Of a stretch of 64,000 nt of DNA, positions 12,074 to 63,625 are shown one piece after another. This DNA comes from Planctomycetota bacterium (GTDB lineage: Bacteria > Planctomycetota > Planctomycetia > Planctomycetales > Planctomycetaceae), in NCBI GenBank assembly GCA_003388505.1, contig QQVO01000005.1:1-64000 (forward strand), in the 5' to 3' direction. The notes under the pieces are model-generated. The model did no database searches, was not told the DNA's origin, and was given only the letters and a program-made list of their open reading frames with translations. Both the position numbers and the translations under genes were made by a program. Within the stretch, counting starts at the first letter, position 1. Every line of letters starts with the position of its first letter.

Positions 12074-13870
12074 ATGGACATTCGCCGCGCCTCACTGCGT
12101 GCTTTTCTGCTTGGGACTCTCATCGTCAGTTGGATGAGACCGGGGCCGGCCGCGGCGGCCGATCAGGCTCAGGTCCAACAGGCGATCACCAAGGGGACGA
12201 ACCTCCTGCGCTCGGAGATCGACAAGAGCGGCGGCGGCCAGAAAAGCTTGATCGCCGTCGCATTGATCAAGGCCAAGGAGCCTCCGGCTTCACCCGCGAT
12301 TCGCGCCGCCGTGGACGCGGTCCTGGCCAAAATTCAGGACGGTGCGTACGAACCTCCCAGCGCGGTGCACATTCAACTGTACGAGGCCGGCGTCGATGCG
12401 ATGCTGTTGGCGGACGCCGTGAAGATTCCTGACCAGAGCGACCCGGCGTACCTGGAGTTCGTTCACCCGTACAAGGAACAACTGGCCGCCATCACACGCT
12501 ATATCCTCAGTTATCAACTCTCCTCCGGCGCATGGGACTATCCCCCGGGACACCCTCGCGGACCGTCGGCCGGCGATACCAGTGTGACCCAGTACGCAAT
12601 GTTGGGCTTGTGGGCGGCCGCGAGGGCCGGCGTGGAAATCGACCCGACAGTCTGGGAACGCACGATCGAATGGCATATCGGCCGTCAGAATCGCGACGGC
12701 GGATTCGCATACGTCCCCGGAACGGACCACGGTTTCGGAGCAGGACGCTCCACATTGAACATGACGATCAATGCGGTCGGCAGCACTTACATCGCCCTCA
12801 TGCACCTCAACCCGGGGAATCTGCCCGACATCACTGATCCGAAAATCGCGCAACCTGCCGGGGCCGCGAAAAAAGACGACGAAAACGTCCGGTTCGGCGT
12901 CTTGGAAAAGGTCGACGTCGCCGAGGTCGACGACACTGACTCGGACGAAAGGCCGCAGGGCAAGATTCCACCGGCCACAGGGCAGTTGCTTGCGGCCGCT
13001 TACAACTGGATCGTCCCCCGCTTCAGACCAGAAAACGACGCCCCAGGCTATGACGCCTACTACTACTACTCACTCGAGCGAATGGCTGCGCTGGCCAGGA
13101 TGCCGAAGATCGGCGAGGCCGACTGGTTCAACGTCTGCGCCGATTACCTCATCCAGACCCAGGAGGATGACGGGGGCTGGGGCTCCTCGGCGCACGTCGG
13201 CGTCGGCGTCAACACCGCCTTCGCCGTCCTGTTCCTCACCCGTTCGACGGCGCAAGTCGTTGGAACTCCCGTCCCGGCGGATCCCATCGGCGGCGGACTG
13301 CAGAAGGGCGGCCGCGGCCTCTCGTTCGATGGGCTGGGCGGCGAGAAGCCGAAACAGCCGCTCGCCGAACTCGACGACCTGCTCGACAAACTCAGCGCCG
13401 CCGGGGACTTCACGATCGAAGAAGTTCAGGAACAGATCGTCAAGCAGGTGCAGATCGGAGACAAGGAAGCGCTCATCGAGCGGAAGGATCTCCTCGTCGA
13501 ATACGTGCAACATCCCGACGCCGAGGTCCGCCGCACCGCCGTCTGGGCGCTCGGCCGCACAAACGACTTGAGCCTCGCCAAACATCTGATCACAGCTCTC
13601 GACGACCAGGACCTCGGAGTGATTATCGAGGCCCGCAACGCGCTCTGCTGGCTGTCGCGCAAACCGACCGGCCTGGGCGAAGCAGCCGACCCCTTCGAGG
13701 ATCTGCCCGAAGACGCCACTGCCGAGCAGCGCAGCAGCGCGATCGCCGCCTGGCACGCTGAATTGATCCGCAAATGGGGCGAGTGGTATCTCGAACACCG
13801 CCCCTACAAGGACCGGGGAGACGAGTTCGAGGCGAATCTCTTGCGGAAGATCGCCGAAGCGGGAGGCTGA
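12074..13870 (+). CDS. Secreted squalene-cyclase-fold (prenyltransferase repeat) protein with C-terminal HEAT-like repeats
   Basis: A 598-residue exported protein. The ATG at 12074 is chosen because it begins a clear signal peptide (RRASLRAFLLGTLIVSW, then AAAADQ); the open frame extends further upstream without a plausible N-terminus. Residues ~30-450 carry the alpha6/alpha6 barrel repeats of squalene cyclases and prenyltransferases, with QW-type turns QLSSGAWDYP, QNRDGGFAYV and QEDDGGWGSS. The acidic DxDD motif of real cyclases is not found. Residues ~490-560 resemble HEAT repeats (VRRTAVWALGRTNDLSLAKHL). Such proteins are frequent in planctomycetes without known activity. A scaffold or binding role is more likely than terpene cyclisation. 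Confidence 0.82.
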   Translation: MDIRRASLRAFLLGTLIVSWMRPGPAAAADQAQVQQAITKGTNLLRSEIDKSGGGQKSLIAVALIKAKEPPASPAIRAAVDAVLAKIQDGAYEPPSAVHIQLYEAGVDAMLLADAVKIPDQSDPAYLEFVHPYKEQLAAITRYILSYQLSSGAWDYPPGHPRGPSAGDTSVTQYAMLGLWAAARAGVEIDPTVWERTIEWHIGRQNRDGGFAYVPGTDHGFGAGRSTLNMTINAVGSTYIALMHLNPGNLPDITDPKIAQPAGAAKKDDENVRFGVLEKVDVAEVDDTDSDERPQGKIPPATGQLLAAAYNWIVPRFRPENDAPGYDAYYYYSLERMAALARMPKIGEADWFNVCADYLIQTQEDDGGWGSSAHVGVGVNTAFAVLFLTRSTAQVVGTPVPADPIGGGLQKGGRGLSFDGLGGEKPKQPLAELDDLLDKLSAAGDFTIEEVQEQIVKQVQIGDKEALIERKDLLVEYVQHPDAEVRRTAVWALGRTNDLSLAKHLITALDDQDLGVIIEARNALCWLSRKPTGLGEAADPFEDLPEDATAEQRSSAIAAWHAELIRKWGEWYLEHRPYKDRGDEFEANLLRKIAEAGG

Positions 13871-50583: not shown

Positions 50584-51095
50584 GGCTGAGATTCCTCGGG
50601 GCGGGACGAAGAGCAGAGAGCACGACTGCCTCGCGATTCTACCGCCGTAACAAATCTCCGGTCAATCGCCCCCCGATTCCCCCTAAGCGACCGCGACCTC
50701 CTGCACTCCCACGAGCCGCAATGACCTCGCTTCCAAACTTCCGTCTGGCAACGCACGCATGCCCCGCCGGAATCGGATCACAGTGAGCAGGCGTCGCCCG
50801 CAACCCAACGACGTAGCGCACGCAGCCTGGCGTGCGTCCCGCTGATCGCAAAGACGGTTGACGCATGCTGGCAGCGTGCGCTATGGGCCAGCGCAAGAAC
50901 TTGCGCAGGATCACAAGGGCCTGCACGTTCGTAATACAAACCGGCCGCTCGCTTCCCCGGGCTCGCACGTGAGCGTCCGCATGGCGACAATGGATCGGCG
51001 AGGAGTCTCGCGGCGGCTGCCTGGCCCGGCGACTCGAGCGAACGATTGCGTGTCTGCCTCTCATGCCGGGGGCGCAGGCCACACACGGGGACGCC
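50584..51095. other. 512-bp intergenic region between divergent genes, holding a REP-like repeat
   Basis: No gene is seen. The middle holds copy B of the double-hairpin repeat (50788-50931). The rest of the spacer shows no recognisable promoter. Short minus-strand frames that read through the repeat also occur in the other copy and are artefacts of the repeat. Confidence 0.5.
50788..50931 (-). repeat. REP-like double-hairpin repeat, copy B
   Basis: Inverted copy of 25005-25148. The core (50812-50885) has the two hairpins with sequence changes that keep pairing in the first (GCAGCCTGGCGTGCG) and mostly in the second (GCATGCTGGCAGCGTGC). Copies differ by scattered substitutions, which argues that they are old and perhaps maintained for structure. 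Confidence 0.85.
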
Positions 51096-52757
51096 ATGAA
51101 GACACAAGCGCTTGAGACGTTTCGCGAAAAACTCGCCGCCGGTCATTCCGTGCACGGGCTCTGGGCGACGCTCGAATCAGCGACCGTCACCGAAATCGCT
51201 GTCGCACTGGGACTCGACTGGGTCGTCGTCGACGCCGAGCACGGACATCTCGACTGGAAGGACGTCAACGAACACGTTCGCGCCGCGCTCCGCAGCGATA
51301 CCGTCCTGCTGGTCCGCCTGGCCGAGCGCAGCACTTCGCTCACCAAACGCGCGCTCGATATCGGCGCCGACGGCGTCGTCATCCCCTGGGTCGAATCGAC
51401 CGAGCAACTTGAAGAAGCAATTCGAGACTGCCGCTATCCGCCGGAAGGCCGCCGCGGAATCGGCGGCGAACGCGCGACCGCCTGGGGGCACTGTCTGGCC
51501 GAGCATACGGCCGAAGCGAACGAACAGGTGCTGGTCGTCCCTGTAATCGAGAGCGTCGCCGCGATTCCTCATATCCCCGCCATGTGCGAACTCGACGGAG
51601 TCGACGTCTTCTTCTTCGGTCCGGCCGATTTCTCGGCCACGGCCGGCTGCCGCGGTCAGTGGGAAGGCCCCGGCGTCGCCGAGCAGATCCTTGAATTGAA
51701 AGACACAATCATCGCCGCCGGCAAACACTGCGGACTCATGACCACGAGCCTCGACGATCTCGAGACTCGGCGCGAGCAGGGATTTCGCATGCTGGGCCTC
51801 GGGTCCGACACCGGGCTGCTCTCGCGTTCGCTGCATCAGGCCCTGCAGAAACTTGGATGCGACCGCATGCCCGCCACGAGCCTCGACCCGGCCGATGGAC
51901 GACCGGTCCGCGTCCCGCTCCCCCAACCCCCTGAACACATGCGGCCAGATCGTCACGAACTGGTCACCCACGTCACCGAGACCGACACCCTGGAACTTCA
52001 ATCAGGCGTCCTCTTCAATCCGCTCGTGGGACAGTTCAACACGGCCCGCGATCTCACCACCGGCGTCGTCGCCTTCAAACCGGAGGCGTCGCTCGATTGT
52101 CACACCCATCCCTGCAGCGAGTCGATCACCGTCCTGGAAGGGCAACTTGAAGTCTTGGTCGAAGGCCGGGCGTATCGCCTCGGTTCGCTCGACAACATCA
52201 CCATCCCCCGGTGGCTGCCGCACGCCGCCAGAAACCCCGACCCTGCAGTCACTGCCCGCTTGCACATCGCACTGGCGATGGACGTTCCCGAGCGGGAACT
52301 TGTCGCGAAGGAGTTCGAACGCATCGAGATGCCGGACGACTCACCGGGACACCCGGGACGAGAACGCGTCACCCGGTTCGCAACGGCCGCCCGCACCTTC
52401 GGCGTCGGCCCCGGCGCGGAGTTCATCGATTTCTTCAACGCAGATCTGATGCCCGGCCTGGAAATGAGCGGCGGGTTCGGCCGCTTCGATCCGGACGGGC
52501 GTCTCCCCGCCCATCTGCACGACTTCGACGAGTCGATCTGTATCATCGACGGCGAAGCCACCTGTCACGTTGAAGGCCGCCGCTACTCCCTCTCCGGTTG
52601 CGCCACCGCGATGGTCCCCCGCGGCCGCGTGCATTACTTCATCAACGAGTCCCCCGGTTCCATGGACATGATCTGGGTCTACGCCGGCCCACTCCCCGAA
52701 CGCATCGTCGTCGACGAGTCGTGCGCCCTGCACCCGCCTGACCGAACGCCCTGTTGA
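51096..52757 (+). CDS. HpcH/HpaI-type aldolase fused to two cupin domains
   Basis: A 553-residue fusion. Residues ~1-255 are an HpcH/HpaI class II aldolase: WVVVDAEHGHLDW (catalytic H49), LLVRLAERS (R74), GADGVVIPWVES, VVPVIESVAAI (E152) and FFGPADFSATAG (D178). These bind metal and pyruvate in 2-keto-3-deoxysugar aldolases. Residues ~300-400 are a first cupin (HTHPCSE: H336, H338, E342; later H376), and ~440-540 a second (HLHDFDE: H473, H475, E479; later H513). Both have HxHx3E...H metal-site patterns. The start is ATG 51096; an in-frame codon at 51063 would add eleven residues. It leads a gene run with a beta-helix protein. The substrate is not known. Confidence 0.88.
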   Translation: MKTQALETFREKLAAGHSVHGLWATLESATVTEIAVALGLDWVVVDAEHGHLDWKDVNEHVRAALRSDTVLLVRLAERSTSLTKRALDIGADGVVIPWVESTEQLEEAIRDCRYPPEGRRGIGGERATAWGHCLAEHTAEANEQVLVVPVIESVAAIPHIPAMCELDGVDVFFFGPADFSATAGCRGQWEGPGVAEQILELKDTIIAAGKHCGLMTTSLDDLETRREQGFRMLGLGSDTGLLSRSLHQALQKLGCDRMPATSLDPADGRPVRVPLPQPPEHMRPDRHELVTHVTETDTLELQSGVLFNPLVGQFNTARDLTTGVVAFKPEASLDCHTHPCSESITVLEGQLEVLVEGRAYRLGSLDNITIPRWLPHAARNPDPAVTARLHIALAMDVPERELVAKEFERIEMPDDSPGHPGRERVTRFATAARTFGVGPGAEFIDFFNADLMPGLEMSGGFGRFDPDGRLPAHLHDFDESICIIDGEATCHVEGRRYSLSGCATAMVPRGRVHYFINESPGSMDMIWVYAGPLPERIVVDESCALHPPDRTPC

Positions 52758-52852
52758 TCGCCTGTAACGTCCCCTGCGCGTTATGATCGCGAGCCAGATT
52801 CTCAACTGTCCGTCTGCGCATTCGCATCGGTTCTCCTGGTAAAGACATTTCC

Positions 52853-54949
52853 ATGAAATTGTGGGCCTCTGAAAATCTGAAACGGTTCGCCCTCATCGTC
52901 GCCCTCGGCGGAATGGGGTCTCTCGTCACCCGCGTGATCGCCGAGGATGAACCATCCGCGTCCCATCCACCGATGCGCGCGCTGCCCACCGCCTCGCAAC
53001 GGCCAATGGAAGACGGACCGTCTTATTTCGTCGATGCAGCCGGCGGCGATGATCAGAACGAGGGCAGCGAGCAGACGCCTTGGAAGACTCTCCGCTACTC
53101 GCTGCGGAAATTGAAACCCGGCGACACGCTGTATCTGCGCGGCGGCGTCTATTACGAAAAGGTCTCTCTCTCACAATCCGGCACGGAAGACGCCCCGATC
53201 ACCATCCGGTCCTACCCCGGCGAAACGGCGATCATCGACGGCGGATTGCGCGAGTTCTTCGACAGCCCCGAAACGAGTTGGGAACCGTATAAGGACGGAG
53301 CCGAAGGCGAGTTCGTTTCAACCCGCACCTACGACGACGCGAATGACCGCCGGGTTCCCTACCAGTTTCTGCCTGCGGCCTGGGAGCCGATGTGGAGCAT
53401 CGAACACGAACGCCCGCTCGCCCTGGGCCACTTCGCCGATTCCATGGTCCCGCTGCACAGCTACCGGGTGGCGGTCGACCTGCGTTCGGAGAACGAACTC
53501 TGGATCGGCGGGAAGTTCGAGATGCGCGACACCGGCGTCTACTGCGGACCGGGACTCTGGTTCAATCGCGAAACCGGCCGCATCCACATCCGCCTGGCCC
53601 ACCACACGCTGGAAGGACTCGGCGACCGCGCCTATCGTGGTGAGACCGACCCGAGGAAACTTCCGCTCATCATCGCAGCCGGTTTCGGCAACGACGTGCT
53701 GCGGGTCAACGGCGTGCAGCACGTTCGCATCCAGGATCTAATTCTTCGCGGGGCCACCGGCAGCCCCATGATTCACGTTTACGGTTCACAGAACGTCGAA
53801 CTCGATCACCTCACTGTCTACGGCGGCTTTCCCGGACTCTTGATCGACGCTTCGCAGAACATTCGCGTCACGCACTCGGCGTTTCGCGGTCTGGCCGCGC
53901 CGTGGACGTCCCGGGCCCACATGAAGTATCGCGGCACCGCGTCGTATCAGATCGTGCTGCGCGACGCCCAGCCGCGCAACGAGAACATCGAACTCGCCTG
54001 GTGCGAGTTCACCGACGACCACGACTTCGCCTTCCTGCGGTTCGTGACCAACCTGCAGTTCCATCACAACTTCGTCGACAACTTCAACGACGACGGTCTG
54101 GAGTGCGGGCCCAAGCTGCGCGACCACACCCTGTTCATCCATCAGAACCGCATCGGCCGTTGTCTGATTCCGATCACGCAGCACGAGATTGAGAAAGACG
54201 AGTCGCCGGCCGATCACGATCCGGAATCGGGCGTCTTCGTCTACCGCAACGTGTTCGACCTGCGGGGCGGCGTCTACAGCGGACCGCCGGCGGAGTCTGA
54301 TCCGAGTGGAGCGTTTCTGAACCGGGAAGGCCATCTCGTCGGCGATCACGGCAGCCCGATCTGGCCCGTGATGCGGGTCTATCACAACACCTTCCTACGC
54401 GAGACGCCCGTGTTTCGCGATTACTTCCTCTTCGGACTCGGCGCGCAGGGACTGCGGGACAACGAGCGCGACGTCTTCAACAACATCTTCGTGCAGATGG
54501 AACGCGTCCCGGGCGTTGGCTTCGCCGGGATCACCGAACCGGGCCGGGTCCGCGAGGGCGGCAATCTCTTGTGGGGCGTCGCCGAAGGTCCGGCTCTCAC
54601 CGCAGACCCGCTCGCAGCGTTCCGAAAAACTCCCCTCTACAAGAAGAGTCGCGACGTCTATCCGCCGGGATGGACAACGCAGGACCAGGTCGCCGACCCC
54701 GGGTTCGTCCACCTGCCGTCTGATTACAAAGCACCCGCCGACCTCAGATTGCAGACCGACAGCCCGGCCGTGGACAGCGGAATCACCCTCCCGGATGCCT
54801 GGCCCGACCCGCTCCGCGACTCAGATTCGGGCGCCCCCGATATTGGCGCCCTCCCCCTCGGCGCCGACCCCTGGTCGATCGGCGTCGACGGCCGCCTGTC
54901 GCTCTTCGGCGACAATTACCAGCAACAAACCACCGATTCGACGAACTGA
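52853..54949 (+). CDS. Exported right-handed beta-helix protein (polysaccharide-lyase-like)
   Basis: A 698-residue protein. A signal peptide (KRFALIVALGGMGSLVTRV, cleaved before AED) is followed by FVDAAGGDDQNEGSEQTPW, the DUF1565/PbH1 start, and KLKPGDTLYLRGGVYYEKVS with SYPGETAIIDGG. The middle (~270-480) has repeated beta-helix turns (GVQHVRIQDLILRGATGSPM, NVELDHLTVYGGFPGLLIDA). This fold is that of pectate lyases and related enzymes. Catalytic residues cannot be identified, so enzymatic or binding function is open. It lies 95 bp after the aldolase-cupin gene and 24 bp before the isochorismatase-family gene. Confidence 0.88.
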   Translation: MKLWASENLKRFALIVALGGMGSLVTRVIAEDEPSASHPPMRALPTASQRPMEDGPSYFVDAAGGDDQNEGSEQTPWKTLRYSLRKLKPGDTLYLRGGVYYEKVSLSQSGTEDAPITIRSYPGETAIIDGGLREFFDSPETSWEPYKDGAEGEFVSTRTYDDANDRRVPYQFLPAAWEPMWSIEHERPLALGHFADSMVPLHSYRVAVDLRSENELWIGGKFEMRDTGVYCGPGLWFNRETGRIHIRLAHHTLEGLGDRAYRGETDPRKLPLIIAAGFGNDVLRVNGVQHVRIQDLILRGATGSPMIHVYGSQNVELDHLTVYGGFPGLLIDASQNIRVTHSAFRGLAAPWTSRAHMKYRGTASYQIVLRDAQPRNENIELAWCEFTDDHDFAFLRFVTNLQFHHNFVDNFNDDGLECGPKLRDHTLFIHQNRIGRCLIPITQHEIEKDESPADHDPESGVFVYRNVFDLRGGVYSGPPAESDPSGAFLNREGHLVGDHGSPIWPVMRVYHNTFLRETPVFRDYFLFGLGAQGLRDNERDVFNNIFVQMERVPGVGFAGITEPGRVREGGNLLWGVAEGPALTADPLAAFRKTPLYKKSRDVYPPGWTTQDQVADPGFVHLPSDYKAPADLRLQTDSPAVDSGITLPDAWPDPLRDSDSGAPDIGALPLGADPWSIGVDGRLSLFGDNYQQQTTDSTN

Positions 54950-54973
54950 AGGCTCGACAAACAGGAGATACGC

Positions 54974-55900
54974 ATGCATTCCCTCACACGCCGCGACGCA
55001 CTCAAGACCATCGGCGCCGGCATGGCGACGGCGACTCTTTCCCGATACGGTCTTGCCGAAGAACCCGCCCCACAGCGAACCATTCCCGCCGTCCCCGGCG
55101 AACTCGCGATTGAGTGGCGACGCCGGGAGGAACTCGGTGGCGAGATCCACGTCATCGAAGAGACCGTTCGCTGGAACGCCTCCGAAACCGCCATCATCAT
55201 CTGCGACATGTGGGCCGACCATCCCTGCAAGATGGCCGCCGTGCGCGTCGACCGCATGGCGCCGCGAATGAACGAGGTCGTCTCGCTCGCCCGCGATCAG
55301 GGTGTGGCCGTCATTCACGCCCCCTCCAGCGGGATGAAGCACTACGAGGACACCCCCTACCGTCAGCGAATGATCGACGCTCCCCACGCTGAACCCCCCG
55401 TCGAGATCCAGAGCTGGTGCTACCACAATCCTGACCGTGAGGGCGAGTGGCCCATTGTGGACGACGTGCCGCGCGACGAAGCGAAGGTCACCGGCTGTGA
55501 CGACCCCGTCGGAGCGCCGCATTACGAGATCGACCGCCATCAGCATCCGGCGATCAAGATCAACGGGTACGACGGCGTCAGCGACAACGGCCAGGAGATT
55601 TACAACTTCCTCGAGCAGGAAGGCCGTAACAACATCGTCCTGATGGGCGTCCACACCAACATGTGCGTCCTCGGCCGGCCGTTCGGCATCCGCCAGCAGA
55701 AGTACCTCGGCAAGAACGTCGTCCTCTGCCGCGACCTGACCGACGCCCTCTACGACCCCCGCGACAAACCGTACGTCAGCCACGCCCGCGGTCTCGAACT
55801 GGTCGTCGAACACATCGAACGCTACTGGTGCCCTTCCATCCTCGGCGAATCCCTCACCAAAACCGTCCCCGGCACCAACGGCCCCGTCTCCACCTCGTAG
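54974..55900 (+). CDS. Tat-exported isochorismatase-family cysteine hydrolase
   Basis: A 308-residue enzyme with a twin-arginine leader (LTRRDALKTIGAGMATATLS). The isochorismatase fold shows the catalytic triad: D78 in IIICDMWADH, K195 in HPAIKINGYDG, and C231 in GVHTNMCVLGRP. Family members hydrolyse amides such as nicotinamide, ureidoacrylate or carbamoylsarcosine. Export is unusual for this family, which is normally cytoplasmic. The start is ATG 54974 with AGGAGA upstream. It is the last gene of the run 51096-55900. The substrate cannot be predicted. Confidence 0.92.
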   Translation: MHSLTRRDALKTIGAGMATATLSRYGLAEEPAPQRTIPAVPGELAIEWRRREELGGEIHVIEETVRWNASETAIIICDMWADHPCKMAAVRVDRMAPRMNEVVSLARDQGVAVIHAPSSGMKHYEDTPYRQRMIDAPHAEPPVEIQSWCYHNPDREGEWPIVDDVPRDEAKVTGCDDPVGAPHYEIDRHQHPAIKINGYDGVSDNGQEIYNFLEQEGRNNIVLMGVHTNMCVLGRPFGIRQQKYLGKNVVLCRDLTDALYDPRDKPYVSHARGLELVVEHIERYWCPSILGESLTKTVPGTNGPVSTS

Positions 55901-56393: not shown

Positions 56394-57737
56394 ATGACTC
56401 TCTCCACCAACTGCGAAGGCTTCTCTCGACGCAACTGCCTCAAGCTGGGCCTGGGCGCCTGGATCGGCGGCGGTCTGGTCGACGCGCTGCGCCTGCGCGG
56501 TGAGGCCGCAAGGTCCGGCGGTCCCCGCCCGACGGCAACCAACTGCATTCTGATCTGGATGGACGGCGGACCGACGCACTTCGAGACCTTCGATCCCAAG
56601 CCCACCGCGCCGGCCGAGATCCGCGGCGAGTTCAATCCGATCGACACCAGAGTCCCCGGAGTCCACTTCTCCGAGCACATGACCAGACTGGCGGGCAGCC
56701 TCGACTCGTTCGCCATGATCCGCTCCATCCGCCACGACCAGGGCAACCACGGGGCCGGCAACCACTACATGATGACCGGCGCTCCGCCCCGCATTCCGGT
56801 CGGCTGCGGCGCGTTTGTCAGCTTCCATCCCAGTATGGGTTCGGTCGTTGCGAAAGAACTCGGCACCGACAACGGCCTGCCCAACTACTTCAGCATGCCG
56901 CAGATGTCCCGCTCCGGCGGACCGAACTTCCTCGGCGCGAAGTACGCTCCCTTCGTCGTCTCCGACGATCCCAACCGGGACAACTTCCGCGTCCGCGACG
57001 TCGCTCTGCCCAACGGCCTCACGGACGACCGCTTCGGCAGCCGCACCGACCTTCGCCGGCTGGTCGATCGCATTCCCCGCATCGAAGACGAAGCCGCCGG
57101 CGACCCGGTGACCGCCATCGATGAGTACTATCACCAGGGCTACAACCTCGTCACTTCACCCGAAGCGCAGGCCGCGTTCCAAGTGGAGAAAGAAAGCGAC
57201 GAAGTCCGCACCGCCTACGGCCGCGACTCGTTCGGCCAACGCTGCCTGCTCGCCCGCAGGCTCGTCGAGGCCGGTGTCCCCTTCATCACCGTCTACGACG
57301 GAGGCTGGGACCATCACAGCAATATCTTCGGCGCTTGCCGCGATCGTCTCCCCAAATGGGACAACACCGTCGCCACTCTCATCAGTGACCTCAAAGATCG
57401 CGGCCTGCTGGACTCCACCCTCGTCGTCGCTCTCGGCGAATTCGGCCGCACCCCCAAGATCAGCACCCTCTCCGGCCAGTCCACACCCGGCCGCGACCAC
57501 TGGGCCAATGCCATGTCGGTCCTGATGGCGGGCGGCGGCACGCCCGGAGGCATCGTCGTCGGCGCGACCGACCGCAAAGGCTTCTCCGCCGTCGATCGTG
57601 TCCTCTCGCCGGAGAACTTCGTTTCGACCGTCTACACCAAGCTCGGCATCGATCCCGACAAAATCCTCTACACCCCCCAGGGCCGCCCCACCCACCTCGT
57701 CAGCGACCCGACCCCGATTAACGAACTCCTCGGCTGA
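56394..57737 (+). CDS. DUF1501 domain protein
   Basis: A 447-residue protein with a twin-arginine-like start (GFSRRNCLKLGLGAWIGGGL). The DUF1501 signatures are CILIWMDGGPTHFETFDPKP near the N-terminus, VYDGGWDHHSNIFGACRDRL, LVVALGEFGRTPKISTLS, and GRDHWANAMSVLMAGGGTPG. The fold belongs to the alkaline-phosphatase/sulfatase superfamily, but no formylglycine Cys/Ser signature of sulfatases is seen. Planctomycetes have many paralogues, often paired with DUF1549/DUF1553 cytochrome-type genes, which are not next to this one. It has its own promoter and is convergent with the kinase gene (121-bp gap). Confidence 0.95.
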   Translation: MTLSTNCEGFSRRNCLKLGLGAWIGGGLVDALRLRGEAARSGGPRPTATNCILIWMDGGPTHFETFDPKPTAPAEIRGEFNPIDTRVPGVHFSEHMTRLAGSLDSFAMIRSIRHDQGNHGAGNHYMMTGAPPRIPVGCGAFVSFHPSMGSVVAKELGTDNGLPNYFSMPQMSRSGGPNFLGAKYAPFVVSDDPNRDNFRVRDVALPNGLTDDRFGSRTDLRRLVDRIPRIEDEAAGDPVTAIDEYYHQGYNLVTSPEAQAAFQVEKESDEVRTAYGRDSFGQRCLLARRLVEAGVPFITVYDGGWDHHSNIFGACRDRLPKWDNTVATLISDLKDRGLLDSTLVVALGEFGRTPKISTLSGQSTPGRDHWANAMSVLMAGGGTPGGIVVGATDRKGFSAVDRVLSPENFVSTVYTKLGIDPDKILYTPQGRPTHLVSDPTPINELLG

Positions 57738-57858: not shown

Positions 57859-60800
57859 CTACTCCGCCGGGTCCGCGGGCAGCGTCACAATGGCCATCGT
57901 CCCATCGTCGCTGGCGCTCACGATTCGCAACTGCTCGAGGCCCGGCAGGCAAACCAAGTTTGTCACGCCGCGCGTATGCGGCCGGAGCGTCCGCACGGCC
58001 TCACCCGTCTTCGCGTCCCACACCCGGATCGACCGGTCATGACTGCCGCTGACGATCCACAAGCCGTCCCGGCTGAAATCGACGCTCGAAACTTCGTGCG
58101 TATGTCCTTGCAGCGTCAGTTTCAGTTCCCCGCTGCGGGCGTCCCACACCTTGACTGTCTGATCCCCGCTGCCGCTCGCGATCCGGCCCCCATCCGGATT
58201 GAACGCGGCACATGAGACAAACCTGGAATGCCCCTTGAGAGTGTGCAGCAGTTCGCCGCTGTCGAAATCCCAGAGATACAGGTCGTTGAATTGACCTCCG
58301 CCGGCAATCGTCCGTCCGTCCGGACTGAATGCGATGCTCGCGATCTCGCCCTGATGACCCGAAAGCGTCTGGACGACCTCTCCCGTCCCGACCTCCCAGA
58401 TCAGGCTCTCGTCCCGAAAGCCGCCTCCCGCGAGCAGACTGCCGTCCTGACTGAACGCGAGGCAACTCATCGATCCATCGTCGAAACTGAGCCGCGTCAG
58501 TATCTCCCCCGTCACAGTGTCCAGAACGGGAATGCCGCCCGACTCAACAGAATCCGGCGTACTCGCCGCAAGCCGCTCACCGTCCGGAGTGACCGCGACC
58601 GCCTGGACCCACTGTAGTTCACCTTCCAGTGTGAGCCTCTCCTGTCCCGTCGCCGGATCCCAGATTGTCACCTGGTCCCTCTGGCCGCTGACCAGCACAG
58701 TCCCGTCCCCGCTCACGGCAAGGGACGCCACGTACCGCGCGGGTCGACGGATCAACGGAAGCTCCGGCCCCTGCGACGCATCCCACAGTTTCATTTCGCG
58801 GGGCATCAAGTAGTCCCCGCTGCCGCTGGCGAGCCGCGAGCCGTCCGGACTGAATGCGATGCAGCGGACGGGGGACGCATGGCCCCGCAATGCGAATGTT
58901 TCGAATCCCGTTTCGGCGTCCCAAAGCCGGATCGTCTCATCATGGCCCGAACTCGCGATCCGCCGACCGTCCGGACTGAAAACCGCGCTCAGCACGTCGC
59001 TCGTGTGCCCCCGCAACGTCAACAACAGTTCCCCGCTCGCCGTATCCCAGATTCGCACCGTCAGGTCCGAACCGGCGCTGACGATTCTGCCTCCGTCGCC
59101 GCTGAAACAAACGTGATTCACGAATGAAGTATGGCCGGTCAATGTCACAAATTCCTCGCCCGTCTCCGCGTTCCAGACCTTAACCGCCTGCTCGGCGCCG
59201 GCGGCAAGCAGCGTCCCGTCCGGACTGAAAGCCGCGCCAGAGAGATTTCGCGTGTGTCCCGAGAGCGTGCGGATCACTTCCCCCGAATCGGCGTCCCACA
59301 ACTTGATGCTGTCCCGATACTCCGACGTGGCGCTGGCGATCACGGCCCCGTCCGGACTGAACGCGACCGACTCGATCTTCCCCGTATGCCCTTCAAACAC
59401 GAGGGTCTCGGCGCCCGTCGCGGCGTCCCACACGCGGACCGTCCCGTCCCAACTCCCGCTGGCGATCTTCTTCCCGTCCGGGCTCACCGCCACCGACGTC
59501 ACCGACTTTTCGTGTCCCCGCAAGCTGTGTCGCTCAGCGCCTGTCGAGAACTCCCAGACCTGGGCGACGCCCGGCGTCGTAAACAACCCGTCGGCCGACC
59601 CGCTGACGACGAACGTCCCGTCCGGGCTGAAAGCGACACTGTTGACGTCGCCCGTCAGTGTCCGGGTCACCGGTCCCTGCGCCGACCGCACCGACCACGC
59701 CTTGACAGTCTGGTCGTCGCTCGCACTCACCACCGTCTCTGCATCGGGACTGAACGCGACCCAGTTGACGTGATCCCGGTGCCCCCGCAGCACGAAATCC
59801 TCGCGGCCGGTGGCGGCGTTCCAGAGTCGAACCGTGCCGTCCCGGCTGGCGCTGGCGATCCGGCGCCCATCATGGCTGAACGCGACGCGCGTGACGTCTT
59901 CCGAATGGCCGGGAAGCGTCAGCAGTTCCTCCCCGCTTGCAGCGTCCCAGACTTTGATCGTGTCGTCCTTGCTGCCGGTGACCAGCCGCGCGCCATCAGG
60001 AGCGACCGCCAGGCTGGAGACCCCGTCCGCATGCCCTCTTGCAATCCACAATTCCTCGCCGCTGGCCGCATCCCAGACTCGCACGGTCCGGTCGGAGGAA
60101 CCGCTGAAGATTTTCGTTCCGTCCGGAGAGAACACCGCCTGCATCACGCCCGCCGTGTGCCCTGTCAGTTTGACCAGTTCCTCTCCCGTCGCCGCATCCC
60201 AGACCTTCACCGACCTGTCGTCGCCGGAACTCACGATTCGAGCGCCGTCGGGACTGTAGGAAACGGTCCACACCCGTCGCTGCCCCGTCTCCCAGGTGCG
60301 GACAGCGGTGAGAGTCTCCACATCCCAGATTGTGACCGTCTGTTTACAGCAACCGACAATGTGGACGCCGTCCGGGCTGAAGGCCAGTCCGTCGACATGA
60401 TCGTTCTGCCGGACCGTCGAACGAAGTTCCTCTCCACTGATCAGGTTCGAGACTTTCACTGTATTGTCATACCCGCCGCTGGCGATTCGCTGTCCGTCCG
60501 GACTCACAGCGACGCAGTTGACCCGATTGTCATGCCCCGCGAACGTCTTCTGATTCTGGTTGAACAGGGAGTACAGATAGTTGAACTCCCAGCCTCGAAA
60601 ATCGCCCCGCGTGGCTTCCAGTTTCTTCCACGCTGCATCCGCGTTGTTCATTTCCCATTCGAGCCGCGCTCCCGCGATCTGGCTGGCATACAGCAGCCAC
60701 TCCGCACGCAGCAGTTGCTCCTCCGTAGCGGCCTGCGCTGCCAGAGCCTGCTCTTTGGCCGCTGCCTCGGCCGTTGCCGCAGCTTCCGCTTGCCCGCGTG

Positions 60801-63138
60801 CTTCCTCGGCCGCCTCCTTCGCCTCGCGCTCCAACTCGGCGGCCCGCTCCGCCCGCTCTTTGGCGGCGGTTTCCGCGACTTGAGCGGCGATCGCCTGCTC
60901 CTTCGCTTCCCGTTCCGCATCAGCAGCCGAGACCGCCGCCCGGCGTTGCTCCACAGCCTCGCGTCGCTGCACCTCCGCGTAGATCCCCAGACTCGAGATG
61001 ATGACGAACGCGGCCAGCACACCACCCGCAATCGCGGCGATCTTCGCCCTGTGTCGCCGTACGTACCGGCCCAGCAGGTACCGCAGTGTCGGAGCTTGCG
61101 CCTGCACCGGATCGCCCCGCTGCCAGCGGGCAAGGTCCTCCGCCAGATCGTGGGCCGAGCCGTATCGCCGCGTCCGGTCCTTGTCCAGACACTTCAGAAC
61201 GATCGCTTCCAGGTCTTCCGGAATCGCCGGGTTGATCCGTCGCGGCGGCTCCGGATCGCTCGACTGGATCTTGAGCATCAACTCCGGCGTCAGCATCTGT
61301 TCCGTCGCGCCGAACAGTGGTTGCAGCGTCAACAACTCCCACAGTGTCGCTCCCAGGCTGTAAACATCAGTCCGCACGTCGACCGGAACCGACAGCACCT
61401 GCTCGGGCGAGGCATAGCGGAGCGTCCCGACAAACTGCCGCGTCCGAGTCAAACGGCCCTCCGACTCGTCCGCAATCTGAGCCAGCCCCAGATCCATCAA
61501 CACCGCCCGGTCACCCTCGGGCGTGACCATGATGTTTCCCGGCTTGATGTCGCGGTGGACCACTCCGGCCTGATGGAGGGCATGCGCAGCCAGGGCCGAT
61601 TGACGGATCGACTCCACAATCCGCTCGATGTAACCCCGCCCGGCGACGGCCGAACCGGCGAGGGTCGTGCCGTTCGGATCGAAGTCACCCGTTGACGTCG
61701 GTGGCAGGTCGTCACTGAGTGGCTTCTCCGCCTGTCGGGCCTCTTCGCAGGCGGAACTGATCGCCTGACGCCAGTCGGCCTGAGTCAGCGACCCGACTTC
61801 GCTGTGACCGAGCCGCTCGCAGACCGCCGCGAGGTCGGCCCCCTCGATCAACTCCATCGTGTAGAACCACTGCTCCGCGTGAGAACCCGACGTGAAGATC
61901 TTGATCAGGTTCTGATGTTCCACGCGTCCCAGCGCGCGAATCTCCCGCGAAAAACGGGCCTCAGCCTTCGGGTCGCCGGATCGCAGCAAAGTCTTGAGCG
62001 CCACCTCGCGTCCCAGCGATGGCTGCCACGCCCGGTACACCGCCCCCATTCCACCCTGACCGATGCGGCTGCGCAGCTCATAGTCACCGAGAGTCCGCGC
62101 CGACGAATCGTCCTCCACCGCCCTGGTCGATTCCTCCGCCTGGGAGCGGGCCGCCCAGTCGCTCACAGCTTCTTCCGTGACTCCCGACCCGAGCAGATCC
62201 GCCAGCAGTTCCCGGTGCTCTCCGACCAGCGACTCCCGTTGGACAGTTTCTCCGGTCGTGTAGCACAGATACTCGGCCCGCGCTCGCCGGCGGCGAGCGT
62301 TCAGGAAGTAGCAATGGCCGACGCCGCCGTCGAACAGCATCAATGGGTGCAGCGACGACGCACTGTTGAGCGCGGCGTCTTCCGACCGCACGAGCAGAAC
62401 GCGGTCAGGGCTTGGCAGCGACGCCTGCCGTTCCCCCGGCAGAGTGAGCGACTCGAGCCGCCGGGGCGTTTCACCGATCAACGCAAACCGCTCAACAAGC
62501 CATTCCCCCGACGATAACCGGCGAACATCCTCGATCGAGATCAGGCGCCGCCCGGCCAGCAGGTCGATCCGTTCCAGAAACTCCATCGCGGCCCCGAGGA
62601 ACGACGTCCCCAGTCGATCGTAAAACTCTGCCGACCGCTGCCCGGCGGCGCCGTGCCCGATCTCCGAGTTGCGGTACTGGACCAGTCGGTCGAACAGGTC
62701 GGAAAGGCGTACGTTCGTTCCGGCCGAACTGGTTCCCTCCAGCGTTTCCTTCAACATGTTGTTGAGGCCCGAACTCCGCGGGAAATCGCCCAGCGACCGG
62801 CCCAGCAACCGCTCCCGCAGAGTCTGAAAGGGGGCGTCTCCCGACTCGGCCAGCACCGGGAGCAACGTCCGGACGAACTCCCACCAGTGTCCCAGAGCGG
62901 GACGCGCAAGCGCCTGCAGCCGCTCCCTCACCTTGGCGTCGTTGTCGTTCAGCCCCGCATACTCCGCGACAGCCACAGCGCCCAGCAGCTTGAGCGACGC
63001 CTCCCACAGATAGTAAGCCGCCAGGTGCCGGTCGAGCGGCGTCTTCGCATTGTGCGCCCGACGCGCAAGCTGAGCCAACGGCAGCGGCAACCGCGGCAGA
63101 AGATCTTCGTTGATAAGCGACGCCAGATCCGATCGCAT
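57859..63138 (-). CDS. Ser/Thr protein kinase with HEPN-like N-terminus and 21 WD40 repeats
   Basis: A 1759-residue protein. The N-terminal ~200 residues are helical and contain RNSEIGH (156-162), matching the R-x(4-6)-H pattern of HEPN domains. The Hanks-type kinase domain (~353-690) has GQGGMGAVYRA, the Lys in EVALKTLL, HRDIKPGNIMV and a DLG in place of DFG. A membrane segment (KIAAIAGGVLAAFVIISSLG) follows, then an Ala/Glu-rich coiled coil. The remainder holds 21 WD40 repeats, most with FSPDG...VWDA...GH, which fit three seven-bladed propellers. The ATG at 63138 is preferred; an in-frame start at 63198 would add 20 residues. It probably senses extracytoplasmic ligands through the propellers. 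Confidence 0.92.
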   Translation of the reverse strand: MRSDLASLINEDLLPRLPLPLAQLARRAHNAKTPLDRHLAAYYLWEASLKLLGAVAVAEYAGLNDNDAKVRERLQALARPALGHWWEFVRTLLPVLAESGDAPFQTLRERLLGRSLGDFPRSSGLNNMLKETLEGTSSAGTNVRLSDLFDRLVQYRNSEIGHGAAGQRSAEFYDRLGTSFLGAAMEFLERIDLLAGRRLISIEDVRRLSSGEWLVERFALIGETPRRLESLTLPGERQASLPSPDRVLLVRSEDAALNSASSLHPLMLFDGGVGHCYFLNARRRRARAEYLCYTTGETVQRESLVGEHRELLADLLGSGVTEEAVSDWAARSQAEESTRAVEDDSSARTLGDYELRSRIGQGGMGAVYRAWQPSLGREVALKTLLRSGDPKAEARFSREIRALGRVEHQNLIKIFTSGSHAEQWFYTMELIEGADLAAVCERLGHSEVGSLTQADWRQAISSACEEARQAEKPLSDDLPPTSTGDFDPNGTTLAGSAVAGRGYIERIVESIRQSALAAHALHQAGVVHRDIKPGNIMVTPEGDRAVLMDLGLAQIADESEGRLTRTRQFVGTLRYASPEQVLSVPVDVRTDVYSLGATLWELLTLQPLFGATEQMLTPELMLKIQSSDPEPPRRINPAIPEDLEAIVLKCLDKDRTRRYGSAHDLAEDLARWQRGDPVQAQAPTLRYLLGRYVRRHRAKIAAIAGGVLAAFVIISSLGIYAEVQRREAVEQRRAAVSAADAEREAKEQAIAAQVAETAAKERAERAAELEREAKEAAEEARGQAEAAATAEAAAKEQALAAQAATEEQLLRAEWLLYASQIAGARLEWEMNNADAAWKKLEATRGDFRGWEFNYLYSLFNQNQKTFAGHDNRVNCVAVSPDGQRIASGGYDNTVKVSNLISGEELRSTVRQNDHVDGLAFSPDGVHIVGCCKQTVTIWDVETLTAVRTWETGQRRVWTVSYSPDGARIVSSGDDRSVKVWDAATGEELVKLTGHTAGVMQAVFSPDGTKIFSGSSDRTVRVWDAASGEELWIARGHADGVSSLAVAPDGARLVTGSKDDTIKVWDAASGEELLTLPGHSEDVTRVAFSHDGRRIASASRDGTVRLWNAATGREDFVLRGHRDHVNWVAFSPDAETVVSASDDQTVKAWSVRSAQGPVTRTLTGDVNSVAFSPDGTFVVSGSADGLFTTPGVAQVWEFSTGAERHSLRGHEKSVTSVAVSPDGKKIASGSWDGTVRVWDAATGAETLVFEGHTGKIESVAFSPDGAVIASATSEYRDSIKLWDADSGEVIRTLSGHTRNLSGAAFSPDGTLLAAGAEQAVKVWNAETGEEFVTLTGHTSFVNHVCFSGDGGRIVSAGSDLTVRIWDTASGELLLTLRGHTSDVLSAVFSPDGRRIASSGHDETIRLWDAETGFETFALRGHASPVRCIAFSPDGSRLASGSGDYLMPREMKLWDASQGPELPLIRRPARYVASLAVSGDGTVLVSGQRDQVTIWDPATGQERLTLEGELQWVQAVAVTPDGERLAASTPDSVESGGIPVLDTVTGEILTRLSFDDGSMSCLAFSQDGSLLAGGGFRDESLIWEVGTGEVVQTLSGHQGEIASIAFSPDGRTIAGGGQFNDLYLWDFDSGELLHTLKGHSRFVSCAAFNPDGGRIASGSGDQTVKVWDARSGELKLTLQGHTHEVSSVDFSRDGLWIVSGSHDRSIRVWDAKTGEAVRTLRPHTRGVTNLVCLPGLEQLRIVSASDDGTMAIVTLPADPAE

Positions 63139-63625
63139 TCCAGCCCTCGAAGTACGACCGCAATATCCGCTGTGGTCCCCCGGCTGAGCAACCGCCAATC
63201 AACATACCACGCCACTCAACCACACCTCAACGACGGCAACCTTGCCTGACCAGCCCGCTCCAGCATTACCCGGCCCCCCAACCCCTCGGCCGTTGACTCT
63301 CCATCTTCACGCCCCCCGCGCAACGCACGCCGATTATGCGCGGGCATGACACGAATCAGAGTTCCAACCAGAATGCTCCCTCACAACTTCACTCTCGACT
63401 CTCAGCTCTCAATTGCCGCACAAACCAAAACAGCGCCTGCCCGCTCTTTTGGTGCGCATCTTTCTTTAAAGAGTTAAAGAGTTGGTCGTTTTTCCGGACA
63501 ATATTGAGGTCAACTCTTTGAAGCGCCCGCCGAAACCCAGACAATTTCGTCCAGCGCGACAACCCGTCGCCTGCCGCACGGCGCAACCGCGCCCCCTCCG
63601 GACCAAAGCGACGATCCTCCCAACT
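63139..63625. other. 487-bp intergenic region between kinase and hisB
   Basis: Kinase and hisB are on the same strand here, with the kinase downstream. The spacer contains an inverted repeat AAAGAGTTG (63476-63484) / CAACTCTTT (63511-63519), next to a tandem AAAGAGTT. No T-tract terminator was recognised. Short frames on both strands are not convincing. Confidence 0.45.

Follow-up and report, generated by a model that had tools for sequence, protein, structure and literature searches.

The aldolase-bicupin gene and its neighbours

The window, the whole 64,000-nt stretch of DNA that was analysed, from a Planctomycetota bacterium (contig QQVO01000005.1), carries a gene that joins an HpcH/HpaI class II aldolase to a two-domain cupin, followed on the same strand by genes for two predicted exported proteins.

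51096..52757, + strand: fusion gene, 553 aa, HpcH/HpaI class II aldolase plus bicupin (ORF, Pfam, NCBIfam, 45 aligned relatives, AlphaFold)
51096..51845, + strand: aldolase domain, residues 1-250, with H49, R74, E152 and D178 intact (NCBIfam, PDB match, residue conservation)
51900..52754, + strand: bicupin, residues 269-553 (AlphaFold, fold matches, ligand conservation)
52853..54949, + strand: exported probable beta-helix protein, 698 aa (weak NCBIfam matches)
54974..55900, + strand: exported isochorismatase-family hydrolase, 308 aa (Pfam Isochorismatase)

The aldolase-double-cupin fusion noticed in an earlier sequence-only reading of this DNA is a real open reading frame in which Pfam found both parts, with HpcH_HpaI covering residues 21-243 (E = 6e-31; 107.9 bits against a cut-off of 25) and Cupin_2 matching two stretches (E = 1e-22), giving a domain order of aldolase at residues ~21-250 and two-domain cupin at ~285-540. 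The start codon at 51096 was preferred over an upstream ATG at 51063 because the relatives share the same MKT beginning. An AlphaFold model of the full-length protein (mean pLDDT 87.9, pTM 0.59) was good within the domains and unsure in their packing.

Judged by the Pfam cut-off and the active-site residues, the fusion protein is a member of the HpcH/HpaI class II aldolase superfamily. The four residues that had been called intact, H49, R74, E152 and D178, align with His47, Arg72, Glu151 and Asp177 of AbHpaI, in which Glu151 and Asp177 bind the metal (PMC8560999), and were invariant in 45 relatives. AbHpaI was also the closest PDB match (7et8, E = 1e-37), and AbHpaI and YfaU-type class II aldolases were the best among the solved relatives, with solved HpcH/HpaI aldolases sharing ~30-34% identity. 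The domain has the fold, domain length, and metal and pyruvate residues of the HpcH/HpaI class II pyruvate aldolases HpaI, GarL and YfaU/RhmA, but differs from them in its C-terminal bicupin and in scoring far under every equivalog cut-off. Its NCBIfam matches were to HpaI (E = 2e-49), GarL and KDR aldolase, all below their equivalog cut-offs, and the L-KDR aldolase family (the RhmA/YfaU equivalog) was outscored by both HpaI and GarL, at 128 bits where its cut-off is 441. The strong homology and the intact residues make aldol cleavage of a 2-keto acid a well-supported predicted activity of the N-terminal domain. The other HpcH/HpaI proteins of the window genome were only ~30% identical to it.

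The 698-residue neighbour has a Sec-type leader, recognized by eye, and, at its N-terminus, weakly resembles the PelN type of beta-helix protein (E = 6e-9; 35 bits, where the cut-off is 740), and a search for a Pfam family returned none; it is likely a beta-helix protein. The leader and the weak matches agree with its earlier description as an exported beta-helix protein, whereas the suggested polysaccharide-lyase character is no more than putative. The next gene, starting 24 bp after the beta-helix gene, encodes the Tat-exported isochorismatase-family hydrolase described in the same reading, with a twin-arginine leader (by eye) and an Isochorismatase match above the Pfam cut-off (E = 2e-8). 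Linkage of these two genes to the fusion, on which the proposed sugar-acid pathway had drawn, was confined to the window: neither adjoins the fusion in any other genome examined, and no homologue of the beta-helix gene was present in any other fusion locus fetched. The hydrolase family had matches in 297 of 397 Planctomycetia genomes, in varied other neighbourhoods, and its closest homologues in fusion-bearing genomes lay on other contigs, away from the fusion. A function derived from the window's own neighbours was rejected, as the beta-helix and hydrolase genes are unlinked to the fusion elsewhere.

Downstream of the hydrolase, positions 56394-57737 encode a DUF1501 protein; further genes of this family turn up repeatedly around fusion loci, on varying strands and often together with Planctomycete cytochrome C/PSD1 genes. 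A very long open reading frame (57859-63198, up to 1779 aa) then encodes what appears by eye to be a protein kinase with a long series of WD40-type repeats after it.

Metal sites and fold of the bicupin

The C-terminal part, a member of the bicupin superfamily, consists of a pair of beta-barrel cupin domains on a single chain, both bearing a metal motif. The two HxHx3E...H patterns pointed out earlier correspond to H336/H338/E342/H376 and H473/H475/E479/H513, each ligand being kept in 44 or 45 of 45 relatives. The AlphaFold model of residues 269-553 was confident (pLDDT 94.9, pTM 0.92) and matched quercetin dioxygenases, oxalate decarboxylases, gentisate dioxygenases and seed globulins over its whole length at similar Z, with quercetin dioxygenase and oxalate decarboxylase on top (Z 23-25). 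Because different bicupins match at similar Z, the fold establishes a bicupin but names no reaction, and assignment as a quercetinase or an oxalate decarboxylase from the fold was not accepted, given that unrelated bicupins score equally. YxaG (quercetin 2,3-dioxygenase), oxalate decarboxylase and gentisate dioxygenase likewise have two barrels per chain and align with Z 22-25 over ~250 residues, but at only 11-19% identity and with no gene context for those reactions here; unlike them, the planctomycete bicupin is fused to, or encoded beside, an aldolase.

Distribution and conserved gene neighbourhood

The domain order recurs across Planctomycetia and on a Verrucomicrobia-labelled contig, as a database search for it showed. 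Scanning species genomes yielded 15 related loci, almost all of them in Planctomycetota and one on a contig labelled Verrucomicrobia. In a 397-genome sample of Planctomycetia, 78 genomes encode the bicupin at E values up to 1e-15, mostly in a reading frame that could accommodate the whole fusion, and the window genome has a single copy. No published description of an aldolase-bicupin fusion or its cluster was found in the literature searched, coverage of which was incomplete.

To describe the neighbourhood, ~80 loci were fetched, their genes called by a codon-usage script, the proteins clustered and duplicates removed, and 47 fused loci were compared. A D-2-hydroxyacid dehydrogenase gene lay on the same strand within seven genes of the fusion in 36 of them, usually as the directly next gene, and was missing nearby in ~10 others besides the window's, some on truncated contigs. 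Less frequent partners were a short-chain dehydrogenase (13/47), a xylose-isomerase-like protein (13/47) with weak matches to 2-oxo-tetronate and hydroxypyruvate isomerases far under the cut-offs, and an SMP-30/gluconolactonase-like protein (9/47), and a GntR/FCD regulator gene stood divergently upstream of the fusion in 13 loci. At one locus (L019) the third gene encodes an aldehyde dehydrogenase. At another (L013:3333-4826), the fusion and the 2-hydroxyacid dehydrogenase gene are separated by a sulfatase gene, a hint that the substrate may be a sulfated sugar.

In four genomes (L067-L070), the aldolase and the bicupin are encoded by separate adjacent genes in the order of the fusion, with the dehydrogenase, short-chain dehydrogenase and isomerase genes of the fusion loci downstream and a GH78 alpha-L-rhamnosidase gene in three of the four. 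Since the bicupin tree nests these split forms within the fused ones, next to the fused, RhaT-bearing L113 (98/96), the split is best read as a secondary gene fission. Three genomes with a bicupin gene and no adjacent aldolase encode an aldolase 53-55% identical elsewhere in the genome, and distant bicupins (such as L108) again occur with HpcH/HpaI aldolases, Ldh_2-type 2-hydroxyacid dehydrogenases and isomerase-like proteins. The linkage of bicupin, aldolase and 2-hydroxyacid dehydrogenase is robust, because fused, split and distant bicupin loci all show it.

Two further loci were noted. In an operon at L141:4018-8389, genes for an Ldh_2 dehydrogenase and a sodium/solute symporter are accompanied by those for a standalone aldolase, which shares 53% identity with the fusion's aldolase domain, and a short-chain dehydrogenase. 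The arrangement resembles L108, where a bicupin stands in the aldolase's place; the symporter gene had been suspected from its length to encode a dehydratase, which was ruled out. On one contig, a divergent standalone bicupin gene occurs twice in identical form among sulfatase-like genes (L107:6919-7707 and 12267-13055), possibly a recent duplication or an assembly artefact.

In the tree, the window protein falls into a clade of 17 members (100/100) with the fused GH78 operons L014, L015, L020, L022, L087 and L088, to whose fusions it is 69-75% identical. In the window genome itself, from an assembly reported as 98.8% complete, we found no GH78 domain, no RhaT and no isomerase orthologue, and the relatives of the D-2-hydroxyacid dehydrogenase were only 36% identical, with no orthologue among them. 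Because most partner genes are absent from this genome, the role of its fusion is inferred from orthologues only, and it could have shifted.

A possible role in L-rhamnose breakdown

Rhamnose and fucose are abundant in the complex polysaccharides of algae and plants that planctomycetes degrade. A GH78 alpha-L-rhamnosidase gene was present at six fused loci and at four split or cupin-only loci. The L113 cluster encodes the rhamnose importer RhaT (504.6 bits against an NCBIfam cut-off of 468), and a member of the same protein cluster lies beside GH78 at L073. At L028, the gene of a standalone aldolase with 62% identity to the aldolase domain of the fusion adjoins that of a RhaM-like mutarotase, which scores above the Pfam cut-off but only 34 against the NCBIfam mutarotase cut-off of 99.6. 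The rhamnosidase, the transporter and the mutarotase-like neighbour point to a methyl pentose, most likely L-rhamnose, as the substrate. The conserved partners thus indicate a 6-deoxy sugar, and uronate breakdown is therefore probably not the pathway.

For the substrate, the order of reactions and the cupin reaction, we infer the following scheme. In related genomes, GH78 would free rhamnose and a RhaT-type transporter would import it; a short-chain (or Zn) dehydrogenase would oxidize it to the lactone, which a lactonase-like protein might open in some clusters; and the D-2-hydroxyacid dehydrogenase would handle an acid before or after aldol cleavage. The N-terminal, metal-dependent aldolase is predicted to cleave a 2-keto(-3-deoxy) acid, for example 2-keto-3-deoxy-L-rhamnonate, with L-lactaldehyde and pyruvate, or an analogue of pyruvate, as the products. 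The bicupin would most likely catalyse the step directly before or after this cleavage, such as isomerization or ring opening of the keto acid, since an adjoining step is the simplest reading of a fusion. We give about an even chance to the fusion being a bifunctional enzyme for consecutive steps on a sugar acid that originates from a methyl pentose, L-rhamnose being the likeliest. Consecutive sugar-acid steps had also been the proposal of the sequence-only reading, of which the functional link between aldolase and cupins, fused in most genomes and adjacent in four, has held up together with a setting in the breakdown of sugars or sugar acids, and the uronate version has not.

Several observations argue against the rhamnose scheme. 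The non-phosphorylated rhamnose route requires a dehydratase (PMC3870299), but none was found near the fusion among the enolase-family or IlvD/EDD matches listed, within 20 kb in 14 genomes. In addition, no curated family names the aldolase, the L-KDR aldolase score falls far below its cut-off, the window genome lacks GH78, RhaT and the isomerase orthologue and has only distant dehydrogenase relatives, rhamnose-specific genes are absent from many fusion loci, and the RhaM-like protein is under the NCBIfam mutarotase cut-off.

With the non-phosphorylated L-rhamnose pathway (LRA1-4) of Azotobacter, Sphingomonas and fungi (PMC3870299), the planctomycete cluster shares a keto-acid aldolase and, at some loci, rhamnose-related genes, a short-chain dehydrogenase and a lactonase-like protein, but no dehydratase was found in it, and it adds the bicupin, the D-2-hydroxyacid dehydrogenase and the isomerase-like protein. 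RhaEW, a rhamnulose-1-phosphate aldolase fused to a lactaldehyde dehydrogenase, is likewise a bifunctional fused aldolase of bacterial rhamnose catabolism (PMC3870299), but RhaE belongs to another class II aldolase family (PF00596) and acts on a phosphorylated substrate, and its partner is a short-chain dehydrogenase rather than cupins. The microcompartment route for fucose and rhamnose in Planctomycetes and Verrucomicrobia (PMC8857213) has the phyla, the sugars and the lactaldehyde intermediate in common with our scheme, but it proceeds through phosphorylated intermediates with an AraD-like aldolase inside a protein shell. That a widespread aldolase-bicupin is present in rhamnosidase operons suggests a second route beside this published pathway, at least one step of which would be new to biochemistry, and the fused, adjacent-split and separate gene forms offer natural constructs for assigning the cupin reaction.

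A dehydratase-free variant of the scheme, which we consider unlikely, would have the D-2-hydroxyacid dehydrogenase oxidize L-rhamnonate at C2 to 2-keto-L-rhamnonate, the bicupin adjust this product and the aldolase cleave it to L-lactaldehyde and hydroxypyruvate, with possible further conversion by the isomerase-like protein. L-rhamnonate is R at C2, the configuration preferred by the D-2-hydroxyacid dehydrogenase family, and so suits such an oxidation. The missing dehydratase gene in and near the clusters, among the matches listed, is consistent with this variant, as are the standing of the 2-hydroxyacid dehydrogenase as the most conserved partner, replaced at some bicupin loci by the Ldh_2 type, and the weak matches of the isomerase-like protein to 2-oxo-tetronate and hydroxypyruvate isomerases. 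A precedent for hydroxypyruvate exists in the HpcH/HpaI family, where the aldolase SwHKA accepts it (PMC10099721), so that C2 oxidation of rhamnonate with hydroxypyruvate as a product is chemically possible, if speculative. However, the isomerase matches lie far under the cut-offs, and every genome tested encodes other enolase-family proteins elsewhere (4-20 per genome), which could supply a dehydratase; even the smallest set, that of G570, includes two unassigned sugar-acid dehydratase-like proteins. That the fusion lies at the heart of a so far undescribed L-rhamnose pathway bypassing the dehydratase, through C2 oxidation, a change made by the bicupin and cleavage to L-lactaldehyde and hydroxypyruvate, is a long shot in our estimate.

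The cupins could instead be non-catalytic, sensing or binding a sugar or acid and thereby regulating the aldolase, or only driving assembly. Many catabolic regulators use cupins, and of the two domains here the first is similar to PuuR and the second to AraC-type ligand-binding cupins. We nevertheless regard this explanation as rather improbable: nearly every relative retains the two complete metal sites, and several genomes encode a separate bicupin, sometimes with no adjacent aldolase yet with the same pathway genes.

Uronate breakdown, in which KdgF-like cupins would act on 4,5-unsaturated uronates, the aldolase would split the resulting keto-deoxy acid and the beta-helix neighbour would be the feeding lyase, is very unlikely. 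KdgF does share the HxHx3E...H site, a chain of the isomerase KduI matches across both cupins (E = 1e-4), and the beta-helix neighbour has its weak similarity to the pectate lyase PelN. By contrast, the KdgF catalytic residues Asp, Phe and Arg, taken from BeKdgF as reference (PMC11381880), are matched by no conserved residue at offsets +9 to +20 from the last metal His of either cupin, and the KdgF match is weak and limited to cupin 1 (E = 0.004). KdgF is moreover a single small cupin that forms a dimer, and the chain here holds two cupins, either fused or as a separate two-cupin protein. A KdgF identity, which the sequence-only reading had raised as a possibility, was rejected on the catalytic residues. 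The beta-helix gene is unlinked elsewhere, and the conserved partners are instead a rhamnosidase and RhaT.

Finally, it is extremely improbable that the bicupin acts as a dioxygenase on rhamnosylated plant phenolics, with the rhamnosidase and aldolase treating the sugar part: its best sequence and fold matches are indeed quercetin 2,3-dioxygenases (YxaG, E = 1e-9; Z 25), but oxalate decarboxylase and seed globulins follow at nearly equal Z, which says little about the reaction, the window genome is without GH78, and fusion to a sugar-acid aldolase better fits a sugar intermediate.
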